Shown here in pieces: positions 1 through 13,881 of a stretch of DNA of 20,559 nucleotides. The stretch is from IMG/VR virus record IMGVR_UViG_3300037635_006220, positions 1-20,559 of that record; one strand, written 5' to 3'. Position 1 is the first letter of the stretch; every line of letters begins with the position of its first letter. The translations under genes and the position numbers were made by a program. This stretch comes from a virus. The notes beneath the pieces are model-generated. The model saw only the letters and a program-made list of their open reading frames with translations, was not told the DNA's origin and did not search any database.

Positions 1-145
1 AAGTTGTCTCGTGCGTGTTATCCATCACCCTTAACTCTGCTATTTCTGATTTCAAATCTGCTATTTCAGCCTGTGCATCTTCATATCTAACCCAACCCCC
101 GTTATTAGCAATATGCTTAGTGGTTGTTAAGCAGTATCTATCCAT
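1..145 (-). CDS. Partial small phage protein with coiled-coil (left edge)
   Basis: An open frame runs off the left edge; 48 codons are visible. The visible protein begins MDRYCLTTTKHIANNGGWVR and continues with YEDAQAEIADLKSEIAELRV, whose heptad-like A/I/L spacing suggests a short coiled coil. Small phage early proteins often have this pattern (a W-V-R/K-Y-E-D box followed by an E/L-rich helix), but no function is established. The start ATG at 145 overlaps the end of the upstream gene by 8 bases, and a GGAG/AAAGGTG purine tract lies just before it, so the two are probably co-translated. The C-terminus lies outside the window. Confidence 0.6.
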   Translation of the reverse strand, partial: MDRYCLTTTKHIANNGGWVRYEDAQAEIADLKSEIAELRVMDNTHETT

Positions 146-398
146 CACCTTTCTCCAGACTTAGAGCCTCTAAAAGCGCGGTTTTGGTTGATTTAAGCAC
201 TTCAGCGCACTCAGACCACCCTTTTGCGTCAGAATCCTTTAAAAACTGCTCTGGTATCGCCTTAAACGCGCTTTCAAGCGTACCGAAGTACATATGCCCT
301 ACCCAAAAAACTTCGTTTTTGACCACTTTCCTTTTTTGGAGGATGTACTGCCTTTTGTCTGACACAATACGATAGCTCTCATTTATCTTGATTTCCAT
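138..398 (-). CDS. Small phage protein, possibly DUF5405-like
   Basis: This encodes an 86-residue soluble protein with no signal peptide or membrane segment. It opens with a strand-rich part (MEIKINESYRIVSDKRQYIL), then a basic stretch, then a helical half (TLESAFKAIPEQFL and the E/L-rich C-terminus). The layout resembles the phage family DUF5405 (I-N-x-x-Y-x-I-x-S-D start, then G-T-x-x-x-A), but I recall this from memory and have not searched. An AGAGGTG ribosome-binding site lies about 6 bases before the ATG. It sits 12 bases after the membrane-protein gene and overlaps the next gene, so it is the middle of a three-gene leftward run. Function unknown. Confidence 0.65.
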   Translation of the reverse strand: MEIKINESYRIVSDKRQYILQKRKVVKNEVFWVGHMYFGTLESAFKAIPEQFLKDSDAKGWSECAEVLKSTKTALLEALSLEKGDG

Positions 399-410
399 TG
401 TGACACCTCT

Positions 411-614
411 TTAATCCAAATAAATATAAATTGTTAACAACGACACCAATGTTATCACGTTGACAAAAAACAAAATATCTCTCGGTTGCGATAAATTTAT
501 TTTTAACCAACTTCTTCTTGGGCGAAGGATTTCAAGCGTTGCTAAAAAAACCAATGTTGCCCACCAAAACACCCATAACCAGAATGGCTCTGGTATATGC
601 TCTATAAAGCTCAT
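411..614 (-). CDS. Small membrane protein, two transmembrane segments
   Basis: The 67-residue protein has two hydrophobic stretches, at about residues 11-29 (FWLWVFWWATLVFLATLEI) and 46-66 (ILFFVNVITLVSLLTIYIYL). They are joined by a basic loop (RPRRSWLK), which by the positive-inside rule would face the cytoplasm. A strong ribosome-binding site (AGGAG followed by AAGGA) precedes the ATG. Its position among early-type small genes, far from the lysis cassette, argues against a holin; a host-interaction or superinfection role is possible but purely inferred. It is the first recognisable gene of the left cluster, and no convincing promoter was found for it. Confidence 0.65.
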   Translation of the reverse strand: MSFIEHIPEPFWLWVFWWATLVFLATLEILRPRRSWLKINLSQPRDILFFVNVITLVSLLTIYIYLD

Positions 615-685
615 TTCCTTTTCTCCTAATTATTTTTGTAAATATTTTCTGTACTCGGACGTTAACATAGGTGTTGAGAAAAGTA

Positions 686-837
686 TAGTTTTTTCTGGAT
701 GCGTTGTGGGAGTAAGGGTGCAGAAAGAACTGTAGTTTTTTCTAATAGGGTTCGTATTGTGATTGGGTAGGGTGGACTGAATCTGTTTTCGCCACGTTTT
801 TTCGCAAGTCATTGATTTTATTGAAGTTTTTCTAATA
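686..837. repeat. Three copies of a TAGTTTTTTCTAATA-like motif
   Basis: Related T-tract motifs occur at 686-696 (TAGTTTTTTCT), 733-747 (TAGTTTTTTCTAATA) and 825-837 (AGTTTTTCTAATA), all in the same orientation. They lie upstream of the leftward small membrane-protein gene. On the minus strand they read TATTAGAAAAAACTA. They may be binding sites or just A/T-rich bias; spacing is irregular (about 47 and 90 bp). Confidence 0.35.
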
Positions 838-850
838 AATAATTATTTTT

Positions 851-900
851 CTTTATATAAAACAATACTTTATATAAAGACAATACTTTATATAAAAATA
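851..900. repeat. Tandem TTTATATAAA palindromic repeats
   Basis: Three copies of CTTTATATAAA start at 851, 868 and 886. The first two repeat units are ctttatataaa(g)acaata, 17 and 18 bp long. The core TTTATATAAA is its own reverse complement, so each unit is a symmetric, easily melted site. Such iterated AT-rich sites occur at phage origins and in repressor arrays; nothing here decides between them. Confidence 0.6.
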
Positions 901-1162
901 TATCCTATTTAACATAATACTTATTATACGCAATAGTTATATATTACAGATCCACCATACAATAGCATCAATACATGCCTTTAAGTCATCCTAGAGTGGT
1001 CGCTGAAAGCCATACAAACATACACCTATACCGCCCTATTAGTATTTTTTATTGTCCAGTATGGGCGATTACAGGCAGTCCAGTGGCGTGTGGTGTGTTT
1101 ACTATAATGTAAATTTATTAAGATTTTATTATATTATCTATATTATCCAGATTATTTGGGTA

Positions 1163-1193
1163 TTTATACAGTGCTATGTTAGTGACCACTAAC
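1163..1193 (-). promoter_or_regulatory. Operator-like palindrome overlapping a possible leftward promoter
   Basis: Positions 1178-1193 read GTTAGTGACCACTAAC: perfect 7-bp inverted arms around a 2-bp centre. On the minus strand TTAGTG (1187-1192) could serve as a -35 box, with TATAAA (1163-1168) as the -10 box, 18 bp apart. A near-identical palindrome lies at 1432-1447, which supports a shared regulator. The promoter is a weak match, but the palindrome itself is clear. Confidence 0.4.
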
Positions 1194-1431
1194 CTGCAAA
1201 CGTATATAGGTAAAGGATTTTATTTTTAAATATATCTAATATATATATACATTATCTATATATATATTTATTATAATCTGTTTTTTATTTTACACTTTTG
1301 TTTATTTATTATTAATATATCAAACAAGATTTTTACTTTCTTTTTGTGTATGGGTAATGGGGTAATGGGGTAACGAACCTTATATTTCACCCTATTTTTT
1401 CACAAAACCCGCGCCACCATTAACTATAAAT

Positions 1432-1476
1432 GATAGTGATCACTAACATTATACAGATTACAGATTTTCTTTAAAA
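1432..1476 (-). promoter_or_regulatory. Second operator-like palindrome next to a TATAAT box
   Basis: Positions 1432-1447 read GATAGTGATCACTAAC, 14 of 16 bases identical to the palindrome at 1178-1193, with a perfect 12-bp core TAGTGATCACTA. On the minus strand a perfect TATAAT (1448-1453) ends directly against it, and a poor -35 match (TTTTAA, 1471-1476) lies 17 bp upstream. A protein bound at the palindrome would cover the transcription start, the usual layout of a repressor site. The Cro-like proteins encoded nearby are candidate ligands by inference only. Confidence 0.4.
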
Positions 1477-1498
1477 AATAACGTACTTTAAAAGCCCT

Positions 1499-1556
1499 GT
1501 AAGCCCGCCTAAGAGCCAAAAGCTCCTGGGCTACACTAGTGTATAGGGTATACCCT
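1499..1556. promoter_or_regulatory. Hairpin followed by two 12-bp palindromes
   Basis: A nested hairpin is formed by GTAAGCCC (1499-1506) with GGGCTAC (1528-1534), and inside it GAGC (1513-1516) with GCTC (1522-1525) around a CAAAA loop. Two perfect 12-bp palindromes follow: TACACTAGTGTA (1532-1543) and AGGGTATACCCT (1545-1556). The decamer TAGTGTATAG at this junction recurs inside the spacer of the promoter at 4416-4444. Role unknown: tandem operators or a structured RNA. Confidence 0.45.
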
Positions 1557-1594
1557 CAAATCACCGTAGGCGAGCTTACATGTATTCTATAAGC

Positions 1595-1621
1595 AAAAAA
1601 AACCCGCTATAAAAGCGGGTT
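1595..1621 (-). terminator. Intrinsic terminator after the first Cro-like gene
   Basis: AACCCGCT and AGCGGGTT pair around ATAAA (1601-1621). On the minus strand the stem is followed by an eight-T run, 22 bases after the stop of the leftward Cro-like gene. A T-rich run also follows on the plus strand, so it may work in both directions. Confidence 0.85.
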
Positions 1622-1643
1622 GTTTATTTTTTTATTAGCTGGA

Positions 1644-1829
1644 TTAATAGGTAAAATCAGCAACCTTTTTAACCAATGAGTAATTATTATAAAAATCGGA
1701 CTGGATGTAATAGTCACCGGATTTTATAAAACGGCTTAATTGGCTCGGGCTGGTATTAATTAATTTAGCCATATGCCTTTTTTTCATGTCGCGATTTGCA
1801 ATAAACATTGATAATTTTTCGCTTTTCAT
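1644..1829 (-). CDS. Cro-like DNA-binding regulator (first copy)
   Basis: This 61-residue protein has the Cro layout: a short N-terminal helix, a helix-turn-helix at about residues 16-36 (KKRHMAKLINTSPSQLSRFI), then a strand-rich tail ending SLVKKVADF. The length and the order helix-turn-helix, then Y/F-rich strands, then VKK-x-x-x-F match lambda Cro (66 residues). It is clearly related to the protein at 5413-5622 (shared KLS, KK, A, S-x-SQ-x-S, I and VKK-x-x-x-F positions). It is the last gene of its operon; its ATG overlaps the stop of the upstream gene as ATGA, and an AAAGGTGA site lies within that gene's last codons. A terminator follows directly. It probably represses phage promoters; its sites may be the nearby palindromes (inference). 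Confidence 0.75.
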   Translation of the reverse strand: MKSEKLSMFIANRDMKKRHMAKLINTSPSQLSRFIKSGDYYIQSDFYNNYSLVKKVADFTY

Positions 1830-2188
1830 AGTCGATCACCTTTTGTGATAATGATCTTTTGATTAGGTAAATAATCAATAACGTATGTTTTACAATTTGA
1901 TAATAATTGATCAACCGATTTATTGTTGAGATCAATAATTGGTATATCTCGATTATTGCGCGATCTGCCAGCGATCTTAATTGGGTTATTAGCGCTTATG
2001 CAATCAATCTCATTGCCATCTATTGGCTTTTTGCTGATGACTATACCAGTGCTATTATAACTAACATAGGCGCAATCATAGCGCTTGAAACCATACTTAG
2101 CTAATAACATAGATTCAATCCATACTCTGGCAAGCCCGCGATTTTTACAGACTTTTAATTGCTTGGTTAACAATGATAATTTATTCAT
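1826..2188 (-). CDS. Unknown protein with RVWIE...GF box, coupled to Cro-like gene
   Basis: This encodes a 120-residue, basic, strand-rich protein. Residues about 17-50 carry R-x-x-x-RVWIE-x-x-x-L-x-x-x-GF followed by a Y-V-x-Y and GIVIS strand. The second half has IKIAGRSRNNRDIPIIDLNN and ends in alternating strands. From memory, the box R-[IV]-W-[IL]-E-x-x-x-L-x-x-x-GF occurs in small phage proteins and in N-terminal extensions of some phage cytosine methyltransferases, and it resembles the SymE/AbrB-type swapped-hairpin fold. No methyltransferase domain is present here. A good AGAGGTA site precedes the ATG. Its stop overlaps the start of the Cro-like gene, so both are made together and may act in one regulatory function. 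Function not established. Confidence 0.65.
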   Translation of the reverse strand: MNKLSLLTKQLKVCKNRGLARVWIESMLLAKYGFKRYDCAYVSYNSTGIVISKKPIDGNEIDCISANNPIKIAGRSRNNRDIPIIDLNNKSVDQLLSNCKTYVIDYLPNQKIIITKGDRL

Positions 2189-2208
2189 AATTTTAGTACC
2201 TCTATTGA

Positions 2209-2535
2209 TTAATATTCATATATAAAAAAAGTTTTACCGCTAACTGAAAATGTTAAACGGTTACCATGCTTTGATCTTTTGTGTGCTATTACTTTATTGT
2301 TAGAACGTGTCAATTGCCATTGGTTGATATACAACCCGTTATCGGTTGCCAGTGTATGCAAGCAATCATAAAATCGTTTAACAGGCTTTACATCAAATAA
2401 TGATCTATGGATATAAATCCATTGATCCGTATTTTTGTCATAGTGTGCAAATTGATCGCACATATCAGAATAATAAGAATAATAAGCTAATTTAAGATCA
2501 TTATTAGAATATTCTGCGGGTTGCAAGGTTGCCAT
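2209..2535 (-). CDS. Hypothetical protein, tyrosine-rich
   Basis: I do not recognise this 108-residue soluble protein. Its N-terminal half is unusually rich in aromatic residues (LKLAYYSYYSDM, then QFAHY and QWIYIHRSLF), and it ends in a strand pair (NRLTFSVSGKTFFIYEY). There is no membrane segment or cysteine cluster. An AAGGA ribosome-binding site lies 7 bases before the ATG, and the preceding stop codon is 9 bases upstream, so it belongs to the same leftward operon as its neighbours. It is probably an accessory early protein; this rests on position alone. Confidence 0.6.
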   Translation of the reverse strand: MATLQPAEYSNNDLKLAYYSYYSDMCDQFAHYDKNTDQWIYIHRSLFDVKPVKRFYDCLHTLATDNGLYINQWQLTRSNNKVIAHKRSKHGNRLTFSVSGKTFFIYEY

Positions 2536-2544
2536 TATTGATCC

Positions 2545-2727
2545 TTATAGGTTGATAGTAAGGCCAGATATCTGGCTGTTGATTAAATTAAAATGTTGCT
2601 GTTTTTTGATTTTAGCAACTTCATTTTTAGCCCATATAACATCATGTTTATTTGTGGAATAGTCCATAATGTAATTAAGCATGATCAAGTACTCATTAGG
2701 CGTTGGGGTAAAGTCTATATTTTTCAT
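2545..2727 (-). CDS. Hypothetical 60-residue protein
   Basis: The gene encodes a small, mostly helical protein (EYLIMLNYIMDY, then a lysine-rich AKNEVAKIKKQQHFNLINSQ). The frame stays open up to 2943, but that would overlap the GP88-like gene by almost 200 bases. The ATG at 2727 has an AAGGA site 11 bases before it, lies 22 bases after the GP88-like stop, and gives a compact operon, so it was chosen. No family recognised. Confidence 0.6.
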   Translation of the reverse strand: MKNIDFTPTPNEYLIMLNYIMDYSTNKHDVIWAKNEVAKIKKQQHFNLINSQISGLTINL

Positions 2728-2749
2728 AATATTTTTAATCCTTGTTTGA

Positions 2750-3439
2750 TTAATGCTTATGGTATGAAATATTAGCAACGTTTTTGTTGTAGCACGCTGT
2801 GCAATCAAGGCATTTATTACCTTGTTTTTGTGAAGGGCATTCAAAGCCGATAACAGCGCGCCTATGGTGTACAGTACTTGTATTAATGCCATCGCGCGTA
2901 TTAGGTGGTAAACCGTCCACCATCGCACCGGACAAGCGCACACAAAGGTTTTTCGGCAATGATTTACGGTATCGATTAATAATAGCCTTTTCCTTGGTTG
3001 ATAACCAAAAATTAATTTCCGGTAATAACTCAGCTATTTTAATGATCGCAATATAATGCGCGTATGATTGCAGATCGCCCGCATCCATCCAACGGTGATA
3101 TCCAACCTTACAACGTTTATTAATCAAAAAAACCATAGCAACGATCCAATTGCTCAGGTTGTCCAGTTTGGTTTGCTTGTGGATTGCAAGGGTATTGTTG
3201 CAACGTCCCTGTTTAACCGATGGATAGATACCCGTCCCGCGCTTTGCATAGCATCTATAACATACGCTATCTTTAACTTTAGATAGTGCCGCGCCCGTTT
3301 TACAATAATCAGGCGATAAACCAAAGGTTGATCCAAGCATTTTACTATTACTGTTAGATATATCACCACTGGTTATGGTTCTGGCAAGCTTGATTGTAAG
3401 CTTGTCATTAAGTGTAAATTTTTTGTTTAATGTTGGCAT
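2750..3439 (-). CDS. GP88-family cysteine-rich protein (gene product 88 domain)
   Basis: This 229-residue protein matches the pattern I know for the actinophage-named GP88 domain family. It has C-K-x-G-x-x-L near residue 46, then S-x-CYRCYAKRG near 58-68, a central RWMDAGDLQSYAHY block near 116-128, FWLSTKEK near 144-151, LPKNLCVRLSGAM near 161-173, and a C-terminal cluster C-x(7)-C-x2-C-x2-C ending in Y-H-K-H. The many conserved cysteines and the W-x-D-x-GD block suggest a metal- or Fe-S-binding enzyme, but no activity is established to my knowledge. The AAGGA site 10 bases before the ATG overlaps the end of the upstream 46-residue gene. It is the only gene in this operon with a recognisable family. 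Confidence 0.75.
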   Translation of the reverse strand: MPTLNKKFTLNDKLTIKLARTITSGDISNSNSKMLGSTFGLSPDYCKTGAALSKVKDSVCYRCYAKRGTGIYPSVKQGRCNNTLAIHKQTKLDNLSNWIVAMVFLINKRCKVGYHRWMDAGDLQSYAHYIAIIKIAELLPEINFWLSTKEKAIINRYRKSLPKNLCVRLSGAMVDGLPPNTRDGINTSTVHHRRAVIGFECPSQKQGNKCLDCTACYNKNVANISYHKH

Positions 3440-3445
3440 TGTTTT

Positions 3446-3586
3446 TTATCCTTTTATCAATTGTTGATTTGTTGCGACAAACTGCAAGACGGCAATAATG
3501 GCATCATATCGATTTGAACTAATCGCAGTATGGTTTTTGAAAGTACAGATATAGCAACGGGTTTTTTTATTAAATATGATTTTCAT
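3446..3586 (-). CDS. Small basic protein (46 residues) with CxxC
   Basis: This short frame encodes MKIIFNKKTRCYICTFKNHT followed by an alanine/isoleucine-rich helix ending QQLIKG. Its ATG overlaps the stop of the upstream 177-residue gene as ATGA, and its last codons supply the AAGGA ribosome-binding site of the GP88-like gene. This tight fit on both sides argues that it is translated. One C-x-x-C pair (residues 11 and 14) could bind metal, possibly as a dimer. No family recognised. Confidence 0.55.
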   Translation of the reverse strand: MKIIFNKKTRCYICTFKNHTAISSNRYDAIIAVLQFVATNQQLIKG

Positions 3587-4116
3587 TGTCCTATACCCCT
3601 ATAACCTTCCATCAGTAAAGCATCGATTCCCATTTCGCCCCCCTCGAAAGCCTCCCCTTTTGTCAGGGAAAACGAGGCAACAAACTGACCTTCTCTGTGA
3701 ACGTGGAACTGGACGTGAGTCCAGTCTTCGTACGTCTCATAGCTGCTGATATAGCAGCCTTGAGGGTTAGCTGATAACTGTGGAACATTAGCAGCAATCA
3801 CTGGCATTATGAATAGTGTTTTTTCAGTCTCAATATTTCTATAATGTTCTGGCACATTATCTATAATCTGATTAATAGTCACATTATAACCTTCCCTTAT
3901 TCTTGGCAAATCAAGCGCATCGTATTGGTTGCACCATAAAGTATTAATTGTATTTTTCAATTCTTTTTTTGTCCCTGTCCAATGGCTTAACTCTTTAATG
4001 GTGTTTTCGTTTTTGCAATTGCCAATTTCCCATAATGGCAAGGCGCACCATATAGGTTCGTGTGCTATGTTTGTTGTTCTGGTTATTTCAAAGCTTTTGT
4101 ATGTTTCGATATTCAT
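3583..4116 (-). CDS. Hypothetical 177-residue protein
   Basis: I do not recognise this soluble protein. It has an N-terminal strand pair (ETYKSFEITRTTNIAHEPIWCALPLWEIG), a helical middle (SHWTGTKKELKNTINTLWC), a further strand-helix region, and a C-terminal part with HVQFHVHREGQFVASFSLTK and an acidic/glycine loop (GEAFEGGEMGID). The ribosome-binding region (AAAAGGAAAATATAAAATG) is identical over 19 bases to that of the gene before it. Its stop overlaps the next start. It is the second gene of the operon. Confidence 0.6.
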   Translation of the reverse strand: MNIETYKSFEITRTTNIAHEPIWCALPLWEIGNCKNENTIKELSHWTGTKKELKNTINTLWCNQYDALDLPRIREGYNVTINQIIDNVPEHYRNIETEKTLFIMPVIAANVPQLSANPQGCYISSYETYEDWTHVQFHVHREGQFVASFSLTKGEAFEGGEMGIDALLMEGYRGIGQ

Positions 4117-4146
4117 TTTATATTTTCCTTTTTTAGTTAAAATTAA

Positions 4147-4365
4147 TTATGACCAGCAATCACTTGCATTATGACAGGCTGAAAAATTATGGTTATCACA
4201 ATATTTATCCCACACATCTTCCTGTATTGCCTTTTCTCTCAATAATTCATATCTATCATGTAATTCATAAGCCCGCTGATGGTTAATTATATAATTGCCA
4301 CGGCATATATGATTATTAATTGACTTTAAAGTTTTATCTAATTTTTGTATTGTTGATAATGCCAT
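4147..4365 (-). CDS. Hypothetical 72-residue protein, first gene of the operon
   Basis: This is a small helical protein (MALSTIQKLDKTLKSINNHI, then a YELHDRYELLREKAIQEDVW helix) ending in a cysteine/histidine-bearing tail (KYCDNHNFSACHNASDCWS) that could bind a metal ion. The ATG follows an AAGGA site and lies about 45 bases downstream of the expected start of transcription of the promoter at 4416-4444. No family recognised. As first gene of the leftward operon it would be the most strongly expressed. Confidence 0.6.
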   Translation of the reverse strand: MALSTIQKLDKTLKSINNHICRGNYIINHQRAYELHDRYELLREKAIQEDVWDKYCDNHNFSACHNASDCWS

Positions 4366-4415
4366 TTTATATTTTCCTTTTGTATTTGACGTTATTGTCG
4401 CGAATTTTCAACTAA

Positions 4416-4444
4416 ATTTTAGGTATATAGTGTATAGCAGTCAA
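4416..4444 (-). promoter_or_regulatory. Sigma-70-type promoter for the 4365-1644 operon
   Basis: On the minus strand TTGACT (4439-4444) and TAAAAT (4416-4421) are 17 bp apart, a near-consensus arrangement. The spacer reads GCTATACACTATATACC; its CTATACACTA is found again, as TAGTGTATAG on the plus strand, at the palindromes at 1532-1556. That suggests an operator within the promoter, perhaps for a Cro-like protein (inference). Confidence 0.7.
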
Positions 4445-5332
4445 TAAAATTATACAAAAATGTCGATTAATTTAAGAATGTGTTAAAAAACAGACGCTTA
4501 TGTAGATAAATTATTTTCGTTATTGCGCACTGCAACATGGTTTTCTGGCATAGTACTTGCTAGTAAAACATGTTTAGCAAACAATGTAGTTTGGTTGATT
4601 TTTTGACAGTAAAAGCAATTATTTCACCCGATAGTTTAATTTGATAAAAATCAAGCTATTGTTGGCTATAATCCAATTTATGAAAAATATCATTTTTCCA
4701 ATTATCGACCTTATTTTGACTATTAAAGGATTTTATCCCAAAAATCCTGCCAAATCACCTGAAAACCGCGCTATATAAGGCTTTCAGCCCGATTGCTCAT
4801 TTTTTGAACAGCAAAAATTCTGAAAAAGCCAAAAAACCACCTTTTTAGCTCATTTTTATAAAAGGGTGTTTTGCCCAGAAAAATTTTTGAGATCGAAACT
4901 GCCTGACAGATTTTTGATCTGCTTTGCTATTGGATTAAACTGAAACCAAAGACTCCCTGGTTGTTTATGAGTAGTGACAACATAATAAAAAACCACCACA
5001 CAAAAATAGAAAGCTCTTTTTAAAATTACTATGCTGTTTTCATGCAGTGCCTTGTGGGCGGCAATCCACCAACAATCTGGAGCAACCCGTCAAAAGCCAT
5101 ATAAGCCCGTTAGCAGCAATTCTCTGTTTAATCTGGATACATTGCCCTAGTTAACTTCAAAGAATTGTCATAGAGTCGCGTATAAGCAATCAGATACCCT
5201 TTCAAACAGTATTAAACAGTGGTTTTGCAGCAATTCCCTGAGTGACCAGAAATAATCTGCTGACAATAATCAGGAAATTATCAGGAAATTGCCACCAATA
5301 TTATTTGGACTATTCTGGAAATGTTCAGGCAT
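4445..5332. other. Long non-coding region between the two small-gene operons
   Basis: Almost 0.9 kb holds no frame with a credible start on either strand. It contains a bulged inverted repeat around AAACATGTTT (4557-4580), one copy of the dispersed repeat (4834-4891), two copies of gcagcaattc (near 5114 and 5228), and a tandem 11-bp repeat ATCAGGAAATT (5269-5279 and 5280-5290). Such a gap is unusual in compact phage DNA. An untranslated RNA, an origin or a decayed gene are all possible. Confidence 0.5.
4834..4891. repeat. Dispersed intergenic repeat R1, copy 1
   Basis: Positions 4834-4875 are identical over 42 bases to 8231-8272, and similarity continues to 4891 and 8289 through an A-tract/T-tract and GAG. 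Within the repeat, AAACCACCTTTT and AAAAGGGTGTTT form an imperfect stem with single-base bulges around a TAGCTCATTTTTAT loop. Both copies lie in the same orientation, upstream of a leftward transcription unit. Confidence 0.85.
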
Positions 5333-5356
5333 AAAAAAAGCAGCATTTCTGCTGCT
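5333..5356 (-). terminator. Intrinsic terminator after the second Cro-like gene
   Basis: AGCAGCA (5339-5345) pairs with TGCTGCT (5350-5356) around TTTC, followed on the minus strand by a seven-T run. It lies about 55 bases after the stop of the leftward Cro-like gene at 5413. Confidence 0.8.
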
Positions 5357-5378
5357 CTTTCTGGCGAGTGCTAATATT

Positions 5379-5431
5379 GAAAAAAGTAATCGGGGTATTT
5401 CAAATTGAAAATTTAGCTTTTGGTTTTCAAA
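5379..5431. repeat. Dispersed repeat R2, copy 1
   Basis: These 53 bases match 8775-8827 at 44 of 53 positions without gaps. On the minus strand each copy holds two sub-repeats: TTTGAAAACC and TTTGAAATACCCC here, TTTCAAAACC and TTTCAAATACCCC in the other copy. The same G/C difference appears in both sub-repeats. Copy 1 overlaps the last codons of the Cro-like gene. Confidence 0.7.
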
Positions 5432-5622
5432 TTATAGGTATTAAACTCATAGCCTTTTTTTACCATTGTACAGTTACCAGATTGATCAACCATTACATAC
5501 ATCTGCTGTCTAATCCAATAGGATACCTGAGATTGTGAACACCCCAGAAAAGCAGCAAGCGCCTTTTTGGGGATGTCGTTATCAGCTAGATGGACTGATA
5601 ATTTGGTTAGTCTATAGCTCAT
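5413..5622 (-). CDS. Cro-like DNA-binding regulator (second copy)
   Basis: This 69-residue protein reads like lambda Cro: an N-terminal helix (KLSVHLADNDI), a helix-turn-helix at about residues 18-38 (PKKALAAFLGCSQSQVSYWI), then the strand pair YVMVDQSGNCTMVKKGYEF and a short basic tail. In lambda Cro the matching stretch is A-K-D-L-G-V-Y-Q-S-A-I-N-K-A-I followed by I-N-A-D-G-S-V-Y. It is related to the 61-residue protein at 1644-1829, and like it is the last gene of an operon, overlaps the upstream stop as ATGA, and precedes a terminator. A perfect GGAGGTGA site sits 5 bases before the ATG inside the upstream gene's last codons, so it should be well translated. It probably acts as a dimeric repressor. 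Confidence 0.8.
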   Translation of the reverse strand: MSYRLTKLSVHLADNDIPKKALAAFLGCSQSQVSYWIRQQMYVMVDQSGNCTMVKKGYEFNTYNLKTKS

Positions 5623-5957
5623 AAATCACCTCCATTCATTTCTTTAGCCCAAATCAAAACGGGCATTATTTCAATCAAATTTTCGCAACTTAAAACAGTA
5701 TCTGGACTATCACCGTCAAGATCCCGTTTAACCAGATAAAATCTATTTTCTGCTGCATCTTCTCTGTTACATGGTGCTATCGCATCAATAAACAAAACAT
5801 ACTCATGGTCACCGCTGCGATTAATCACATAAGATGGGCATACATCATTTTTACTGGTATGATTTTCAAAACCATCTAATATTTCAGAGTCAATATCAGC
5901 AGTGTATACATTGGCGTTGAATAAATCGTTTATCATTTCTTGGTAAGAATATTTCAT
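5619..5957 (-). CDS. Hypothetical acidic protein upstream of Cro-like gene
   Basis: This is a 112-residue strongly acidic soluble protein (MKYSYQEMINDLFNANVYTA, then DIDSEILDGFENH; later LVKRDLDGDSPDT). A central strand (EYVLFIDAIAPCN) and a hydrophobic C-terminal helix (LIEIMPVLIWAKEM) suggest a small alpha/beta fold. No family recognised. Its start shares one base with the upstream stop (TAATG), and its stop overlaps the Cro-like start, so the three genes are translationally coupled. Small acidic phage proteins are often DNA mimics or inhibitors of host proteins, but nothing specific supports that here. Confidence 0.6.
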   Translation of the reverse strand: MKYSYQEMINDLFNANVYTADIDSEILDGFENHTSKNDVCPSYVINRSGDHEYVLFIDAIAPCNREDAAENRFYLVKRDLDGDSPDTVLSCENLIEIMPVLIWAKEMNGGDL

Positions 5958-6265
5958 TATCTGCCACCTTTTAGCTCATCATTTATTTCATCAGCCATAA
6001 TAAATAGGTAGTTTGAAATTGAGTCAATTGCATAATTCATCAGCACCTTGTTTTCAGCGGATTTTAAGGCGCAGCCCGTCAAACCCCTGCCATATATTTT
6101 TGCCCAATTAATGACCTCGCCATAACTATCCTCAATAGTGATAGTTTTTAGTGTGTGCGGTGCTACCGGCCTTGAAATGCTGTACTCGACAAGCATATTT
6201 TTGCTATCTGCCGTCACCTCTACCCATCCAGACAGGTATTTAAAAGTGTAATTTAATTTTTCCAT
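5957..6265 (-). CDS. Hypothetical 102-residue protein
   Basis: This is a soluble alpha/beta protein of unknown family. The first half is strand-rich (LNYTFKYLSGWVEVTADSKN and MLVEYSISRPV), the second helical with one cysteine (GLTGCALKSAENKVLMNYAI, then LFIMADEINDEL). An AAGGGG site precedes the ATG. It lies 12 bases after the 26-residue membrane peptide gene and directly upstream of the acidic protein gene. A terminator-like hairpin lies just upstream of it, so its expression may depend on read-through. Confidence 0.6.
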   Translation of the reverse strand: MEKLNYTFKYLSGWVEVTADSKNMLVEYSISRPVAPHTLKTITIEDSYGEVINWAKIYGRGLTGCALKSAENKVLMNYAIDSISNYLFIMADEINDELKGGR

Positions 6266-6277
6266 TATAACGCCCCT

Positions 6278-6358
6278 TTAGCCAAAATAATAAAAAGCTA
6301 ATCGGTCGATAAGCTGACCGATTAGCCATGTTAGTGTTAACAATATAATAATAGTCAT
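6278..6358 (-). CDS. 26-residue membrane peptide
   Basis: A very short frame encodes MTIIILLTLTWLIGQLIDRL followed by AFYYFG: one hydrophobic span (residues 2-17), a charged pair (D18, R19) and an aromatic end. An excellent GAGGTGG ribosome-binding site, formed by the stop of the upstream gene and the bases after it, sits 6 bases before the ATG. The stop is 12 bases before the next start. This packing is typical of a real gene. Single-span phage peptides of this size often modulate a host membrane protein; the target is unknown. A perfect 11-bp inverted repeat lies within the coding sequence. Confidence 0.6.
   Translation of the reverse strand: MTIIILLTLTWLIGQLIDRLAFYYFG
6284..6326 (-). terminator. 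Terminator-like hairpin inside an operon (possible attenuator)
   Basis: GCTAATCGGTC (6297-6307) and GACCGATTAGC (6316-6326) form a perfect 11-bp stem around an 8-base loop. On the minus strand TTTTTATTATTTT follows. It lies inside the 26-residue peptide gene, between the first gene of the operon and its last three genes. Translation of the peptide would disrupt the stem, so it could couple translation to read-through. Confidence 0.5.
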
Positions 6359-6367
6359 TATACCACC

Positions 6368-6679
6368 TCAAATATATGGCAGTCCGACAACATCCAGCTT
6401 TCTGGATAACGACTTACAAGCTCTGACGGAATGCTCATTTCTGGCATCGTAATATTCAATATCACCGTAAGATTCCATCACGCTAAACATAGCCCGCCAA
6501 AAACCCTGCTGTAATGTTCTATGTTTATTGGTGATTTTCTGTAAAAACAAATCGGCTATTTCCTGATCTGAACTTCTGTTCAGGTGATGAAAAATAACGT
6601 CCATTGCATTGTCTATTTCTTTTTCCCGTTGGTTATCCTGTTTTATCAGGTTAATCTGGTGCTTGGTTAATGTACTCAT
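6368..6679 (-). CDS. Hypothetical helical protein, first gene of second small-gene operon
   Basis: This is a 103-residue all-helical charged protein (HQINLIKQDNQREKEIDNAM, then EIADLFLQKI, FWRAMFSVMES and a basic C-terminal helix ACKSLSRKLDVVG). No family recognised. The AAGGAAATTATATT leader before its ATG resembles that of the DUF932 gene. It follows the DUF932 terminator by about 45 bases; no good promoter is visible between them, so it may depend partly on read-through. Confidence 0.6.
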   Translation of the reverse strand: MSTLTKHQINLIKQDNQREKEIDNAMDVIFHHLNRSSDQEIADLFLQKITNKHRTLQQGFWRAMFSVMESYGDIEYYDARNEHSVRACKSLSRKLDVVGLPYI

Positions 6680-6724
6680 AATATAATTTCCTTTTTAAAA
6701 AATGTTAACGGGTTGTTTCACAGC

Positions 6725-6771
6725 AAAAAAGCACTGTTGGATAGACACCTTAATGCCTATCTCAACAATGC
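6725..6771 (-). terminator. Intrinsic terminator after DUF932 gene
   Basis: On the minus strand GCATTGTTGAGATAG pairs with CTATCCAACAGTGC (one G-T/mismatch and one bulge) and is followed by six T. It starts 3 bases after the DUF932 stop codon. Confidence 0.8.
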
Positions 6772-6774
6772 TCT

Positions 6775-7875
6775 CTATGCGGCTTCAGCTTGCGCTATAC
6801 GCGACCATTGACGGTCAGACATAGTAAGTATCTTGCTACCGATGCTTTCAAGCTCAGTCGCTCTATCGTAGCCTATGGAGTCATCATTTGCCTGTTCTGT
6901 AACAGCATTGAGCATACCCCATTTGGAATAATTCTGATCTTTAATTAGGGATTCCAAAACACCATCTGTTTCTGACTGTCTGATGCCCACTTCTTTGGCT
7001 AATAACTCAACAGCGGGCACTGGGTTAACAACTTTTTCAGACTCATTGGCGAGGCGCAATTTGTCACCCATCTGTCGGCTGAAATCCTGAGAAGCAATTG
7101 CCTTCAGCATATCAGTGGTTTGACCGATTAAAGCCCGATCTTCTAATACTCTGGTTTCATCAGAAATAATTGAGAAGTCTACACCCTCGATTAATTTGCC
7201 ACCTAAATGAGAACGCTTGAAGTTGAAAGCATCAATGCCACCGAAATGACAACCGTTATCGCAAAAAGAGCGCCAGAAAAATGCCTGTAACGCAAGTGAC
7301 CCGTGACCAGTCTCACTATTGGATAACATAAATCCTGGACGAATTATATCGGGTGTACCTTTGGCAGTGATTCCAATTTGCTGTGCCAGACTGTCATCTG
7401 GGAAAAGTACCTTCAGATACATTTTTGAATCAGTAATATTTGATGACAGCAATTTGGTTTCAATATCACCATTGATGATACTGGGCAGGGTATGCTCCAA
7501 TACTGGGGCATGATCAAGGCGCTTATAGCTATTAGATAGAAATGCTCTTAATTCGCCATTCAGTGTACGCAGCATACGGGTGTTTGGCTCTTTTTTGAAC
7601 ATGTCGTTGACCAGACCGTATAAATGCTCCGGATAATCAGCCAGTATACGGAAATAGTGCTTGGTTGGAATTTGAAGACGGGCAGCAATTTGTTTATGGG
7701 CATTATCAGTGATCCCGAATTGCATAGTTTGATCAGGATTAGCGATTTGGATTTTCAAACCAGATTCAGTTTCAATAAATTCAGCTTTTTGTGTATCGGC
7801 TACAAAATCTTGTTTGGTTTTATTTTGGTCAATTACTGTAGTAAGTAGAGACTCTAAGTTCATTGCAGTTTGCAT
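6775..7875 (-). CDS. DUF932 family protein (phage/plasmid-like)
   Basis: The 366-residue protein fits the phage/plasmid DUF932 family. It has an N-terminal strand-rich part (GLKIQIANPDQTMQFGITD), then AHKQIAARLQIPTKHYFRIL, MLRTLNGELRAFLSNSYKRLDH, and the typical LMLSNSETGHGSL-like stretch (here FMLSNSETGHGSLALQAFFW) with CDNGCHF just after. The family is widespread on phages and plasmids and often abundantly expressed; its biochemical role is not settled, though a part in DNA metabolism is often suspected. The start at 7875 was chosen for its AAAGGAAATTATT leader; an upstream ATG at 7914 would add 13 residues. It is a single-gene transcription unit with its own promoter (7999-8027) and terminator. 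Confidence 0.85.
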   Translation of the reverse strand: MQTAMNLESLLTTVIDQNKTKQDFVADTQKAEFIETESGLKIQIANPDQTMQFGITDNAHKQIAARLQIPTKHYFRILADYPEHLYGLVNDMFKKEPNTRMLRTLNGELRAFLSNSYKRLDHAPVLEHTLPSIINGDIETKLLSSNITDSKMYLKVLFPDDSLAQQIGITAKGTPDIIRPGFMLSNSETGHGSLALQAFFWRSFCDNGCHFGGIDAFNFKRSHLGGKLIEGVDFSIISDETRVLEDRALIGQTTDMLKAIASQDFSRQMGDKLRLANESEKVVNPVPAVELLAKEVGIRQSETDGVLESLIKDQNYSKWGMLNAVTEQANDDSIGYDRATELESIGSKILTMSDRQWSRIAQAEAA

Positions 7876-7998
7876 AATAATTTCCTTTCCTTTTTTAGTT
7901 TTGGTTTGGGGCATTGCTGCCCCGTTATTAATTTAGTTATTTTACTGAGTAGGCATTTCTGCTTGCATAACTTTTAAGTTATTAATGTTTCAATTTCC

Positions 7999-8027
7999 TT
8001 TATACGCCTATACAAGCAATAAAGCAA
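7999..8027 (-). promoter_or_regulatory. Sigma-70-type promoter for the DUF932 gene
   Basis: On the minus strand TTGCTT (8022-8027) and TATAAA (7999-8004) are 17 bp apart. The spacer TATTGCTTGTATAGGCG carries a TGTATAG stretch, like that of the operon promoter at 4416-4444 (CTATACA on the other strand). It leaves a leader of about 115 bases before the ATG. Confidence 0.6.
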
Positions 8028-8157
8028 CACATAAATGTAAATTAATTAAACATAGTTGTTATTACTTAAACAGAATCATTATTTTATCAGGCTTTTTATT
8101 TACTAATGATATTATGATTTCTGAGCAGAAAATCTGATTAAATCAATATTTCTGTTT

Positions 8158-8183
8158 ATATAAATAATTCAATTTATTTATAT
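8158..8183. repeat. Perfect AT-only inverted repeat
   Basis: ATATAAATAA (8158-8167) and TTATTTATAT (8174-8183) are exact inverted arms around TTCAAT. It lies in the non-coding stretch 7915-8303, upstream of the DUF932 promoter. It is not followed by a T-run, so it is more likely a binding or melting site than a terminator. Apart from this element, the DUF932 promoter and repeat R1, nothing else was recognised in that stretch. Confidence 0.5.
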
Positions 8184-8230
8184 CTTTCGCTTTATTTATT
8201 AAATCCAATTAATTCCAGGATTTCATCGAG

Positions 8231-8289
8231 AAACCACCTTTTTAGCTCATTTTTATAAAAGGGTGTTTTGCCTAGCAAAATTTTTTGAG
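8231..8289. repeat. Dispersed intergenic repeat R1, copy 2
   Basis: Positions 8231-8272 are identical to 4834-4875. Like copy 1 it is followed by A- and T-tracts ending in GAG, and it carries the same bulged stem. It lies between the DUF932 promoter and the terminator of the 8362-8727 gene. Confidence 0.85.
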
Positions 8290-8303
8290 TCAAAGTCGAG
8301 CCG

Positions 8304-8329
8304 AAAAAAAGCGAGAACTTGTCTCGCTT
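8304..8329 (-). terminator. Intrinsic terminator after the 121-residue protein gene
   Basis: AAGCGAGA (8309-8316) pairs with TCTCGCTT (8322-8329) around ACTTG, followed on the minus strand by a T-run. It lies about 30 bases after the stop of the leftward gene. Confidence 0.8.
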
Positions 8330-8361
8330 GGTTTGGTTTGGAAATTAAATATTGATTTAGA

Positions 8362-8727
8362 TCAATGTTTATTATTGCGCTTTTTCCGTTCCTTTTGGTG
8401 TTCTGAATCATCAATCAAGGCATTGTCTCTGACGTACTCATCCACTGCCGCAGCAATTTCTTCATCGGTCAATGCGTATCGATTAGCATGGGATTCTGGA
8501 TAGCAGCTAGGGCAGTCTGGATCGCCACACTTAAGCATTTCCTGAAGTTCGTCAGGTAAGTTAGCCAGAATGCTCTGCCAACTATTGGGATCATCAAAAG
8601 CGCTCTCCTCAACCTCTTCCCGAAACATTACTGACAAATCGTTGTAAAGGATCTGCGCCTGTGAGTAGGTTAGCTCGATAAGTTTTGGTTCGGTTTCTCC
8701 AACATTTATCACTATGGTTTTTATCAT
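8362..8727 (-). CDS. Hypothetical acidic protein with a CxxxxCxxC knuckle
   Basis: This is a 121-residue soluble protein. A strand pair (IKTIVINVGETEPKLIELTY) is followed by acidic helices (MFREEVEESAFDD), a cysteine group CGDPDCPSC at about residues 67-75 that could hold a metal ion, an acidic helix (TDEEIAAAVDEYV), and a basic end (KERKKRNNKH). No family recognised. A TGGAG site precedes the ATG. It forms its own unit, with a terminator after it and repeat R2 just upstream. Confidence 0.6.
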   Translation of the reverse strand: MIKTIVINVGETEPKLIELTYSQAQILYNDLSVMFREEVEESAFDDPNSWQSILANLPDELQEMLKCGDPDCPSCYPESHANRYALTDEEIAAAVDEYVRDNALIDDSEHQKERKKRNNKH

Positions 8728-8774
8728 TTTTTGCTCCAGTTAATAAAGGTCGCTCCCGTGCAAGGGGGCAACTC

Positions 8775-8827
8775 GAAAAAAGAAAACGGGGTATTTGAAA
8801 TCGAAATTTTGAATTTTGGTTTTGAAA
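8775..8827. repeat. Dispersed repeat R2, copy 2
   Basis: This copy matches 5379-5431 at 44 of 53 positions, ungapped. It starts 544 bases after the start of R1 copy 2; R2 copy 1 starts 545 bases after R1 copy 1. Here it lies between the primase-gene terminator and the start of the 121-residue protein gene, where a promoter for that gene would be expected. Confidence 0.7.
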
Positions 8828-8852
8828 AAAAGCCCCGTAAAGGAAACGGGGC
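8825..8852 (-). terminator. Intrinsic terminator after the primase/helicase gene
   Basis: GCCCCGT (8832-8838) pairs with ACGGGGC (8846-8852) around AAAGGAA, followed on the minus strand by seven T. It ends the leftward primase operon, about 70 bases after its stop codon. Confidence 0.9.
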
Positions 8853-8920
8853 AAATATATATAATGAAAACCAATATTAAAATAAGATACAACAATATGA
8901 AAAAGGAATTAAACATATTG

Positions 8921-11359
8921 TCATACCTTAAGCGCATAGTACCGCACCTCGCCTTTCTTTTCAAGCCCTGTCATATTAACGCCTATCGCGCCTTGGTCTT
9001 GCAAGTCGTTTAACACCTCATTACGATTTTTTATCGCCATACCTTTAAACGGAAAAATTTTATTCATATCAGTACGGCTCATACCGTTGTGCAGCGTTTC
9101 TCTAATCGCCTCAAGGCAGTCATTGCGTTGCTTGTGTTTCGGGTCTTGCGTTGAATACCTGTCTATCAATGCCGCCAATTTCTTGCCGTGATATTGCACG
9201 AACGATATGCACCACTGCGCCAGTTCGGTTGTAATAACTGGCTTATACGGATCTTCAAATGCCGCTAAACCCACGCAAAGTCTTCGGGCGTTTTCCAACC
9301 AACGACATGATACGTTCCTCATGAACTCGTTGTGTTGGTATTCGTCATCAAGATAGTCATCGAAATCAAAGAATAGATTACTTACTTCGGTGGAGATGTT
9401 AATTATTTTTGGGTCGGCTTTATTGGAATATGACCGACTCATATCCTCAAGATTACCCATGTTCCCGTATTTAAGCTCATCGCCCCTATCAACTACCGCC
9501 TCACAGTGCTTGATAATCCAGTCCGGTATTCCCAACTCGATCTTTCTGCGCTTGGTTATTCTGTCGTTTCTGGCATCCATCACGATAAGCCTATTAAGGA
9601 AGCCGCCCTCAACATGGCTCGATGTCAATGCATCCACGAACTGTTGTGGCGTGGACATACCAAGCATGGTTAAGCAAGGGTTATGGATAGGCTCAGCCCG
9701 TAAATCCTTCTTGGTGTTCTGACCATCAGGCATCGCGTAACTACGCCCTCCCCACACACCCCTGCTATCTGAATACACTTCCTTCATTGCTTCAAACGCC
9801 TCAGAGTCCCGACCATTGCCTTTTAAGCCTCTGGCTAATTTATCGCCAAACTCATCGATGACAGAGATCCTAACGGGGCTTTGTATCAGGTGCGCTCGTA
9901 GCGCAGCCTCTGATGTAAAGCTGCTGCCCCCAAACACATCTTTCAAGCTTTTCTGATTAGACTCAAGAAGCACTTTATGAATGCATTTTTTAATAAAATC
10001 TTTACCAGTACCAGTGCCTGCAATGAGGCAACCCATGATAGGCGAGAAGTTTCCTCGCTCATTCTCCATAAACACTCTTGATGCTGCGCCACAAGCAAGA
10101 GTGATTGCCCCTAGTAATGCCACCTGTCTCGATGACTTTGGCGCTGTGCTTTCCATCCACTCAGCCACTGACTGTACGTTCGTGCAAGGTATGGTTTTTA
10201 ACAACTCAGGCGTGGTGGATAACAAGTCCTTGCCATCCCATATGCGTAACTCGGCACGTTCTGGCACTTGGAAGCCCGCTTTAACGAATCTATCTAGCAC
10301 TGCTTTTGCTCTCTTACCTTCGCCTTCATCTTCAGCACACCAGATATCATTGAAGTCCATACCAACCAGTTCAGGCATTGCTATAAAGGTATCGGGGAAT
10401 TTGTCCCTACATTTTTCCGCTGCCTTAACGCCAGTTTCTGATGCGTCATTATCAGCACCAATAAACACGGTCTTGCCATCAACCAATTTTCTGGTGCTGT
10501 ACATCACTGGCAGCAAGTTGCCTGAGTCAAAACAAACCACTACCGCACAGTTCAGCGCCAGAGATATTGATGCGCCTGTGGCAAATCCCTCGCAGTATAC
10601 TATCGATGGACTCGACTCGACATCACCGATGATATGGAAGTTACCTTTCTTTACTGCGTGTTTCTTGAATAATTTAGTGCCACTAGAATTAATGCGTTGC
10701 CAGTTAACAGTCTCGCCTTTAACATTATAGATAGGCAGAACCATGTCAGCAGCATTCTCATCAAGTACACCTGCCACCCCCATCTTAAATACCTCGACCT
10801 GTGCAATAATGGCTGATATCTTTTTATCAGCAAAGTACTTATGCTTGGTTAACCTTGGCAACGCACTGATTTTAGATTGAACATATTTTGTGGCAGCGGC
10901 AGCAAGAATCTCTCGCTCTTTCTTCACCGCCTCTGCGTGTTCCTTCATACGAGCATTAATTTCTGCTATCTCGCTTTGTGATGGCTTGCCGCTTAAGAAA
11001 CCCGCCCAATTAGTGTGACCGCCTAGTCGCCAATCACCATATGAACCGAAGGCAGCATCACCGCTTCTCTTGAAGTAATACCATCCTGGTTTTGTACTAG
11101 GTTTGCACCCATCTACATCACAGCGCATAGGCTCGGTGTCTGTTTCGACTAACCCATCGGGCAGTTGAAATCCGGCATCGATTAATATACTGGTAAATTC
11201 ATTAATTAAATCACCAGTGGTCTTAACATGTGTGCTTGGCTCATCAAACACATGAAAGTATTCGGGTAGTTCTGTTGTTGGTTTTTTTACTTCTTCTTTC
11301 TGCTCTGTTATTGGTTTGTCATCATCGAGACTGACTTTTGCTTCTGCAAGCCAATTCAT
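8921..11359 (-). CDS. Toprim primase / superfamily helicase fusion
   Basis: An 812-residue replication protein. Residues about 75-115 form the N-terminal region common in such phage and plasmid primases (CDVDGCKPSTKPGWYYFKR, then YGDWRLGG). A coiled, charged linker (130-160) follows. The Toprim domain carries its glutamate in YCEGFATG (E257) and its acidic pair in IGADNDASETG (D302/D304 region). The C-terminal ATPase of DUF3987 type has Walker A GTGTGKD (about 448-454) and Walker B ISVIDEFGD (about 498-506). The last 60 residues look like a winged helix (SRTDMNKIFPFKGMAIKNRN). It should make primers and unwind DNA at the phage fork. An AAGGAG site lies 6 bases before the ATG. It is the second gene after the YdaS-like regulator, from the promoter at 11663-11691, and ends at a strong terminator. 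Confidence 0.9.
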   Translation of the reverse strand: MNWLAEAKVSLDDDKPITEQKEEVKKPTTELPEYFHVFDEPSTHVKTTGDLINEFTSILIDAGFQLPDGLVETDTEPMRCDVDGCKPSTKPGWYYFKRSGDAAFGSYGDWRLGGHTNWAGFLSGKPSQSEIAEINARMKEHAEAVKKEREILAAAATKYVQSKISALPRLTKHKYFADKKISAIIAQVEVFKMGVAGVLDENAADMVLPIYNVKGETVNWQRINSSGTKLFKKHAVKKGNFHIIGDVESSPSIVYCEGFATGASISLALNCAVVVCFDSGNLLPVMYSTRKLVDGKTVFIGADNDASETGVKAAEKCRDKFPDTFIAMPELVGMDFNDIWCAEDEGEGKRAKAVLDRFVKAGFQVPERAELRIWDGKDLLSTTPELLKTIPCTNVQSVAEWMESTAPKSSRQVALLGAITLACGAASRVFMENERGNFSPIMGCLIAGTGTGKDFIKKCIHKVLLESNQKSLKDVFGGSSFTSEAALRAHLIQSPVRISVIDEFGDKLARGLKGNGRDSEAFEAMKEVYSDSRGVWGGRSYAMPDGQNTKKDLRAEPIHNPCLTMLGMSTPQQFVDALTSSHVEGGFLNRLIVMDARNDRITKRRKIELGIPDWIIKHCEAVVDRGDELKYGNMGNLEDMSRSYSNKADPKIINISTEVSNLFFDFDDYLDDEYQHNEFMRNVSCRWLENARRLCVGLAAFEDPYKPVITTELAQWCISFVQYHGKKLAALIDRYSTQDPKHKQRNDCLEAIRETLHNGMSRTDMNKIFPFKGMAIKNRNEVLNDLQDQGAIGVNMTGLEKKGEVRYYALKV

Positions 11360-11395
11360 AAGCTACTCCTTATTATTGTTGGTTATAGCTTATGA

Positions 11396-11620
11396 TTATT
11401 TACGTTCTTGTCGCTCATTCTCCAGTAATACGTCCCTCGCTTTGATTTTGCCACCAGATACTCGTTCGATCTGCAAGGCGTTGCTTGCGGGGATTGTGCC
11501 TTTTTGTGACCAATTATATACGTTTTGTGAGGAGGTGTTCATTGCCTTAGCAAGCTCTGCTTTGCCCCCAAAGTGGGTAATTGCGTTATTAATACAGCCT
11601 TGATTATCAGTTTGCGTCAT
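11396..11620 (-). CDS. YdaS/Cro-like helix-turn-helix protein
   Basis: A 74-residue protein with a helix-turn-helix at about residues 18-40 (GGKAELAKAMNTSSQNVYNW) and the hallmark tail of YdaS-like Cro proteins, IPASNALQIERVSGGKIKARDVL. These small proteins replace lambda Cro in many lambdoid elements and bind operators at the lysis-lysogeny switch; some are described as antitoxins of YdaT. No YdaT or CI gene is adjacent: the divergent neighbour is a replication-arm gene. An AAGGAAAG site lies just before the ATG. It is the first gene of the leftward primase operon and probably regulates the divergent promoters next to it. Confidence 0.85.
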   Translation of the reverse strand: MTQTDNQGCINNAITHFGGKAELAKAMNTSSQNVYNWSQKGTIPASNALQIERVSGGKIKARDVLLENERQERK

Positions 11621-11662
11621 TTTTCTTTCCTTATTAAATAAAAAATGTAGTTCGAGTGATGG

Positions 11663-11691
11663 ATACTAAACGCATTTTGATAAAATTACAA
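11663..11691 (-). promoter_or_regulatory. Leftward early promoter (YdaS-like gene and primase)
   Basis: On the minus strand TTGTAA (11686-11691) and TAGTAT (11663-11668) are exactly 17 bp apart. It lies 43 bases before the start codon of the YdaS-like gene. Its -35 box is 18 bp from the -35 box of the rightward promoter, so one bound repressor could control both. Confidence 0.65.
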
Positions 11692-11709
11692 TATAAACTA
11701 AATATTTTC

Positions 11710-11738
11710 TTTACAAGACATAAAATTAGGCGTACTAT
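11710..11738 (+). promoter_or_regulatory. Rightward early promoter (recombination/replication operon)
   Basis: TTTACA (11710-11715) and TACTAT (11733-11738) are 17 bp apart. A small TCCC-TTCG-GGGA hairpin follows in the 5' leader (around 11745-11757), just before the first gene's AAGGAAA ribosome-binding site. The -10 box lies about 45 bases before the ATG. Confidence 0.65.
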
Positions 11739-11782
11739 CAAATCTCCCTTCGGGGACTACAATTTAATCAAAAGGAAACGCT

Positions 11783-12175
11783 ATGAATATTGAACTATTA
11801 CAGCGTATCTCAGAACTTGAAGCAATCAAGTTAGAGATATCAGCGCTAAACTCACAAAAACTCGAAACAGAAAACCTCATCCTCGCCCTTGTTGATAACG
11901 ACAAGCTAGAAGGCGGCAAAACCCTTAAAGATGAAAACGTCAGCGTCACTGTAACCAATGCGGTTACTCGTACCTGTGACTTTGAGAAACTTCATATGCT
12001 TGGTAAAGAATTGCCGCCAGACCTTCAACTTATCTGCATGAAGCAATCGCTTGACCTAAAGAATCTGCGAGTAGTTGAAAAGACTGCCGGAGAACGATTC
12101 AAGGCAGCATTGGGCGAAGCAATCACTGTTAAGCCTCGTAAGTCATCTGTTACTTTCAAGCGATTGCAGTCGTGA
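11783..12175 (+). CDS. Phage protein of recombination operon, probably DUF7173-like
   Basis: This 130-residue protein starts with a long helix (residues 1-38, ELEAIKLEISALNSQKLETE), then a strand part (NVSVTVTNAVTRTCDFEKLH), LPPDLQLICMKQSLDLKNLR, and a C-terminal VKPRKSSVTFKRL. The order helix, then the T-R-T-x-D strand, then L-P-x-x-L, then L-D-L-K-x-L-R, then K-P-x-K-x-x-V matches a small phage family I know as DUF7173, of unknown function, often placed upstream of ssDNA-annealing genes. An AAGGAAA site precedes the ATG. First gene of the rightward operon; its stop overlaps the next start (TGATG). Confidence 0.75.
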   Translation: MNIELLQRISELEAIKLEISALNSQKLETENLILALVDNDKLEGGKTLKDENVSVTVTNAVTRTCDFEKLHMLGKELPPDLQLICMKQSLDLKNLRVVEKTAGERFKAALGEAITVKPRKSSVTFKRLQS

Positions 12176-12429
12176 TGGACTACGACAATCTGATACTTAG
12201 AAGCATAAAAGTATCAGAAGTTGATGAATGGTGCGACTTGAATCCGTCAAGAAATTATGACGAAAGCAATCGTGATGAAGGTGAACGTGAGTTATTTTAT
12301 AAAATGATAAGTGATGCTCTCGTTCGCAAAACAGAGACAGTAGACAATCTAACGGAAGTTGTACTGCATCTATCACATCGCATCAAATATCTTGAAGCAC
12401 ACGTTGAACAAATAACTGGACAAGCATAG
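12175..12429 (+). CDS. Hypothetical acidic coiled-coil protein
   Basis: This encodes an 84-residue acidic protein. The N-terminal part (SIKVSEVDEWCDLNPSRNYD) is followed by a charged loop and a C-terminal coiled coil (TVDNLTEVVLHLSHRIKYLE). The ATG at 12175 overlaps the upstream stop by one base; a GTG three bases earlier is also possible. It lies 10 bases before the Sak4-like ATPase gene. It may be an accessory partner of the recombination proteins, inferred from position only. Confidence 0.65.
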   Translation: MDYDNLILRSIKVSEVDEWCDLNPSRNYDESNRDEGERELFYKMISDALVRKTETVDNLTEVVLHLSHRIKYLEAHVEQITGQA

Positions 12430-12439
12430 GAGAAAACCA

Positions 12440-13222: not shown

Positions 13223-13234
13223 GAAATTATAATT

Positions 13235-13723: not shown

Positions 13724-13881
13724 GGAAAATCATAAGGCACGAACAAGTGCCGCCAAATAAAGGGGGCAGACCTAAAAAATCTGCCCCACCCCAACGTTAC
13801 TACGGTAACAACCCAATCAGCGAAGAGCAGTACCAAATCAATAAAAAATATATCGCTGAATTAAAAAGGAGCTTTTTATGA
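13711..13881 (+). CDS. Small basic protein with AT-hook-like GRPKK
   Basis: A 56-residue frame begins MGTVRKIIRHEQVPPNKGGR, continues PKKSAPPQRYYGNNP, and ends in the helix EEQYQINKKYIAELKRSFL. It overlaps the DUF669 gene by 13 bases and the next gene by 4 (ATGA), and fills an otherwise empty 150-base gap. KGGRPKKS is like the AT-hook core, which binds the minor groove of A/T-rich DNA. The ATG lacks a clear ribosome-binding site, so it may rely on coupling; a GTG inside (codon 13) with an AAGG upstream is the alternative. Likely a real accessory DNA-binding peptide, but unproven. Confidence 0.5.
   Translation: MGTVRKIIRHEQVPPNKGGRPKKSAPPQRYYGNNPISEEQYQINKKYIAELKRSFL

Follow-up and report, generated by a model that had tools for sequence, protein, structure and literature searches.

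A paralogous pair of predicted lambda-Cro-fold proteins encoded before two leftward terminators in a tailed phage from environmental DNA

The IMG/VR virus record IMGVR_UViG_3300037635_006220 derives from environmental DNA, and its 20,559 nucleotides were analysed as a whole (hereafter, the window). Two small genes on the minus strand, gene A (1644-1829) and gene B (5413-5622), encode proteins of 61 and 69 residues, which are predicted to be regulators with the lambda Cro fold. Gene A is the last gene of a left unit that runs from 4365 to 1644; gene B is the last gene before a terminator at 5339-5356. The start of each gene overlaps the stop of the gene upstream as ATGA. For A (CAAAAGGTGATCGACTATGAAA), the upstream gene encodes 120 residues (1826-2188, minus strand); for B (GGAGGTGATTTATGAGC), it encodes 112 residues (5619-5957, minus strand). 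Neither upstream protein matches a known family, and the two are dissimilar. A good Shine-Dalgarno sequence lies inside the upstream gene in both cases. Both genes are followed by a strong intrinsic terminator on the minus strand. The one after A (1601-1621) has an 8-base-pair (bp) stem and a T run (-12.9 kcal/mol, folding z -4.15); for the one after B, the values are -17.6 kcal/mol and folding z -4.17. The two reading frames, their ATGA starts and their terminators had all been reported in a preliminary description of the window, and each was found here as reported. ATGA coupling was also seen at six or more further gene junctions of the window; thus the coupling of A and B is ordinary rather than distinctive.

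The same description had made each gene the last of its operon. Both genes do precede terminators, but for B this position may apply to less than the whole unit. A 12-bp hairpin with a T run (6296-6327, minus strand; z -6.53), which may be a terminator or an attenuator, is located within the operon of B, between the genes at 6368-6679 and 5957-6265. It was the strongest terminator-like hairpin tested. As the final three genes of the unit are downstream of it, their expression may be reduced or separate, and B may end a sub-block of three genes and perhaps not the unit as a whole. A possible 26-residue hydrophobic micro-ORF (open reading frame; 6284-6361, minus strand) contains this hairpin and lies near the end of gene 6368-6679. 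Imperfect direct repeats were also observed around B. The segments 4834-4888 and 8231-8285 are 96% alike, and the segments 5379-5431 and 8775-8827 are 83% alike, with the same order and the same spacing (about 489 bases); the 3' end of gene B falls within the 5379-5431 copy. Duplication of 4834-5431 as 8231-8827 was considered and rejected, because only the ends are alike and the similarity of the interior is at chance. In the left unit, the leader and start region of the genes that start at 4116 and 4365 are 76% identical over about 65 bases (4082-4145 and 4331-4394).

Proteins A and B are, by sequence comparison, full-length paralogues. Their Smith-Waterman score (BLOSUM62) is 81, as compared with a mean of 23 and a standard deviation of 4.3 for shuffled sequences, and no shuffle reached 81. 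The preliminary description had counted about 19 aligned identities between two related Cro-type regulators; the MAFFT alignment has 22 identical columns, corresponding to 37% identity. When 26 proteins of the window, mostly small ones, were compared with one another, A and B formed the top pair (z = 13.1, versus 4.0 for the next pair) and were the sole clear pair. A BLASTP search of A against B returned no alignment; this result is overridden by the shuffle test and by querying the window with B, which recovers A. An operon-wide duplication as the source of the two genes was rejected, since the neighbouring genes are unrelated.

Structural models of A and B were built with AlphaFold2 on the two-sequence alignment of A and B. 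The model of B (mean predicted local distance difference test, pLDDT, 75) has the full set of elements in the order β-α-α-α-β-β. The model of A (pLDDT 70) has the order β-α-α-β-β, with the first helix unassigned. In these models of moderate confidence, the arrangement of a lambda-type Cro was found, consisting of an N-terminal strand, three helices with a helix-turn-helix (HTH) and a C-terminal β-hairpin. In Foldseek searches of the PDB, the best matches of A were 2pij (Pfl6 Cro) and lambda Cro, at a probability of about 0.9. With B, probabilities rose to 0.99, and each of the 16 leading matches was either a lambda Cro, a Pfl6 Cro or a Cro-fold protein of designed or hybrid origin. No lambda-Cro profile was among the Pfam, PHROGs and NCBIfam matches of A and B, and phmmer and profile searches of the PDB sequences with A and B found no Cro. 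Neither protein matched the P22 Cro family (PF14549), and their C-terminal regions are predicted to form β-strands rather than an all-α structure. The models thus suggest that A and B are lambda-Cro-fold DNA-binding proteins.

Searches for relatives of the two proteins gave nothing in INPHARED, in the Pseudoalteromonas phages C7 and H40/1 or, with a hidden Markov model, in 22 loci that were related or served for comparison. The GTDB genomes also gave none, in a pattern-based and hence limited search. In IMG/VR, relatives of A and B were restricted to near-identical contigs, and each protein is 100% identical on a contig of another metagenome.

Megablast of the whole window against 50,697 phage records gave no match, and an Rfam search found nothing. 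Overlapping contigs from other metagenomes match the window and lengthen it: L013 covers 1-4753 (3 mismatches), L014 covers 1-1446, and L012 covers 4628-20559 (0 mismatches). L012 bears tail genes; L013 and L014 bear genes for Dcm, a Vsr-like protein, terminase, portal and capsid. The window and these contigs belong to a tailed phage of bacteria. A divergent replication block occupies the centre, with the genes for a third regulator, C, and a primase reading leftward, and those for an NTPase, a DUF669 protein, a nuclease and a helicase reading rightward. Two leftward small-gene units end in B and in A, and the leftward late region begins to the left of A. A further contig, L004, shows the start of the late operon: a MarR-like regulator (4606-5076) and a Dcm-type methylase (5848-6633) come first, and a Vsr-like gene in the opposite orientation (6905-7258) comes next. 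Neither a CI repressor nor an integrase could be recognised in the window or in the stretches of the overlapping contigs that were inspected.

Gene C (11396-11620, minus strand) had been described as a YdaS-like regulator that serves the replication arms. The YdaS family (PF15943) does match C above its cut-off (9e-13), but P22_Cro (PF14549) scores better (5.3e-14; 52.2 bits against a cut-off of 30.2), and C is more fittingly called a P22-Cro/YdaS-type regulator. The Pseudoalteromonas phages C7 and H40/1 share gene C and the right replication arm with the window, and in them the homologue of C adjoins the same replication block. Along their length, neither A nor B has significant similarity to C. 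Profile matches and fold predictions together suggest that one phage encodes both Cro fold classes, with C of the P22 type and A and B of the lambda fold.

Candidate operators were found in the late-operon leader. The 16-bp palindromes GATAGTGATCACTAAC (1432-1447) and GTTAGTGACCACTAAC (1178-1193) are the only repeated palindromes of operator size, and both lie downstream of the terminator of A. A predicted late promoter on the minus strand (1475-1448; TTTAAA-16-TATAAT, matching at 10 of 12 positions) reads leftward into the terminase, portal and capsid genes, which are carried on L004 and L013. The palindrome at 1432-1447 is directly downstream of this promoter and therefore covers the predicted start site. 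In 1000 dinucleotide shuffles of the region 640-1600, the palindrome pair never occurred; a promoter abutting one of two palindromes occurred in 57 of 1500 shuffles (about 4% by chance). The Cro of phage PY54 binds a single 16-bp palindrome (PMC4488713), so the size of GATAGTGATCACTAAC and GTTAGTGACCACTAAC suits a candidate operator. A perfect half-site, ATGTTAGTG, was also seen at 6328-6336, just upstream of the hairpin in the operon of B. The AT-rich 1-kb late leader contains short direct repeats as well, including a GGTGTTGAGAAAAGTATAG-type pair (670-696 and 717-743) and a tandem 18-mer (859-894).

These observations led us to the following reading, which is tentative and which we hold at somewhat under an even chance: A and B may be paralogous lambda-Cro-fold repressors that end two leftward early units, and A may act on late transcription. 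The two proteins are taken as repressors because of their predicted Cro fold and the candidate operator on a start site. They would act as dimers and, being encoded by terminal genes, would be made with a short delay. More tentatively, A might bind the two palindromes, which follow closely on its terminator, and block the late promoter at 1475-1448; the terminase, portal and capsid genes might then be held low until the operator copy number increases through replication. The gene for A is the regulator gene nearest to the palindrome at 1432-1447 and precedes the late region. Residues 27 and 32 of lambda Cro contact bases; the matching positions of the recognition helix are Pro and Arg in A, and Gln and Tyr in B. 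As the helices diverge at these positions, the sites of A and B probably differ, and the target of B is probably different from, or overlapping with, that of A.

Several results weigh against this reading. The Foldseek E-values are 0.08-0.3, none below 0.001, although weak values are expected for proteins of only about 60 residues. The fold models rest on two sequences and reach pLDDT values of only 70-75. Comparison with lambda Cro, which the preliminary description had proposed as a check, agreed in the order of fold elements and in the Foldseek matches; the Smith-Waterman similarity to the lambda Cro sequence was at chance, so that the relation is one of fold. The searches of INPHARED, IMG/VR, GTDB and the 22 loci offered no diverged relatives of A and B for a conservation test. 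When the whole window was shuffled 60 times, a similar palindrome pair arose in 4 of the shuffles, and promoter-like sites overall are no commoner than expected. Moreover, nothing directly ties the palindromes to A rather than to B or C.

In a rival reading, which we consider rather unlikely, the palindromes would belong to C or to the late operon's MarR-like protein, with A and B acting elsewhere. C has a family-level Cro/YdaS match and a conserved position in related modules, and the gene for the MarR-like protein is one of the first in the late operon. However, the palindromes are absent from the divergent promoter region of C, where such a Cro would normally act, and A remains the nearest regulator. 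Early-promoter feedback, as proposed in the preliminary description, is about equally unlikely in our view. Here, A and B would report the completion of their transcripts and lower early transcription from the promoters near 4416-4444 and 7999-8027 or at the centre, as lambda Cro does when it represses early promoters. The predicted Cro fold and the terminal gene positions are in keeping with such delayed feedback. The early promoter regions do not support it: those near 4416-4444 and 7999-8027 and the central divergent region have no dyad in common with one another or with the late leader, and none bears the palindrome found there. Nor does the last-gene position alone imply feedback, because in phage epsilon34 the early right operon ends with a homologue of the late antiterminator Q (PMC2629481). 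Two further features of the early promoters were recorded. The window has exactly two copies of the 8-mer TAGGCGTA (8003-8010 and 11727-11734), each directly at the -10 element of a predicted early promoter. The motif TAGGCG before the -10 element is common to two early promoters but was set aside as too short to weigh.

Two other explanations were weighed. The genes might be antitoxins, each paired with its ATGA-coupled upstream gene as the toxin, in the toxin-first order of higBA or crlTA. Gene order and size resemble those of CrlTA, in which a 121-residue toxin is followed by a Cro-like antitoxin (PMC9127804). The upstream proteins of 120 and 112 residues are unrelated to each other, though, and neither 1826-2188 nor 5619-5957 has a toxin or other family match. 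Each pair is also embedded in a longer operon with no evident promoter of its own, and there is hardly any probability left for this reading. Alternatively, A and B could be small accessory HTH proteins that have no present regulatory target and were kept by chance after duplication, as their restriction to near-identical contigs in the databases and comparison loci would allow. Both reading frames, their strong Shine-Dalgarno sequences and the fold are nevertheless intact at 37% mutual identity, which makes this explanation very improbable as well.

A and B thus appear to be a real paralogous lambda-Cro-fold pair in an unusual gene position, as judged from alignment and models; the ingredients are singly of known kinds. 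In comparison with lambda Cro and Pfl6 Cro, the proteins are of similar length (61-69 residues versus 66) and similar predicted element order, apart from the unassigned first helix of A. They differ from lambda Cro in having no sequence similarity to it above chance and in being two paralogues. A lambda-type Cro is encoded by the first gene of the lytic operon, divergent from CI; A and B are encoded by last genes, and no CI was seen. The candidate target resembles that of the PY54 and N15 Cro proteins in being a 16-bp palindromic site, but the palindromes here lie in the late leader. In CrlTA and HigBA, as here, a small HTH gene overlaps the end of a gene for about 120 residues; the difference is that the upstream genes described here have no toxin family match and are mutually unrelated.

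The P22 Cro/YdaS regulators of phages H40/1 and C7 are matched by C, both in family and in adjoining the same replication block, whereas A and B are predicted to belong to the other (α+β) Cro fold class. Lambda Cro and P22 Cro are probable homologues with different C-terminal folds, and Cro is the textbook case of a proposed fold switch among homologues, with all-α in P22 and α+β in lambda (PMC10235069, PMC5011417). A phage with one P22-type regulator and two paralogous lambda-fold regulators supplies new and very divergent sequences for this question. A broader proposal, which we regard as doubtful, is that A and B represent a lambda-Cro-fold family outside the known sequence families, duplicated beside a P22-Cro-fold regulator, and that these terminal-gene paralogues time the early and late operons via different operators. 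If so, both Cro fold classes would work together in one circuit. The late leader is a short, defined region for direct binding tests. Like Q of the lambdoid phages, A ends an early unit directly before a predicted late promoter; Q is an antiterminator, whereas the model of A resembles an operator-binding repressor. Control of the late promoter by A, if real, would represent a simple repressor-based alternative to Q-type antitermination.
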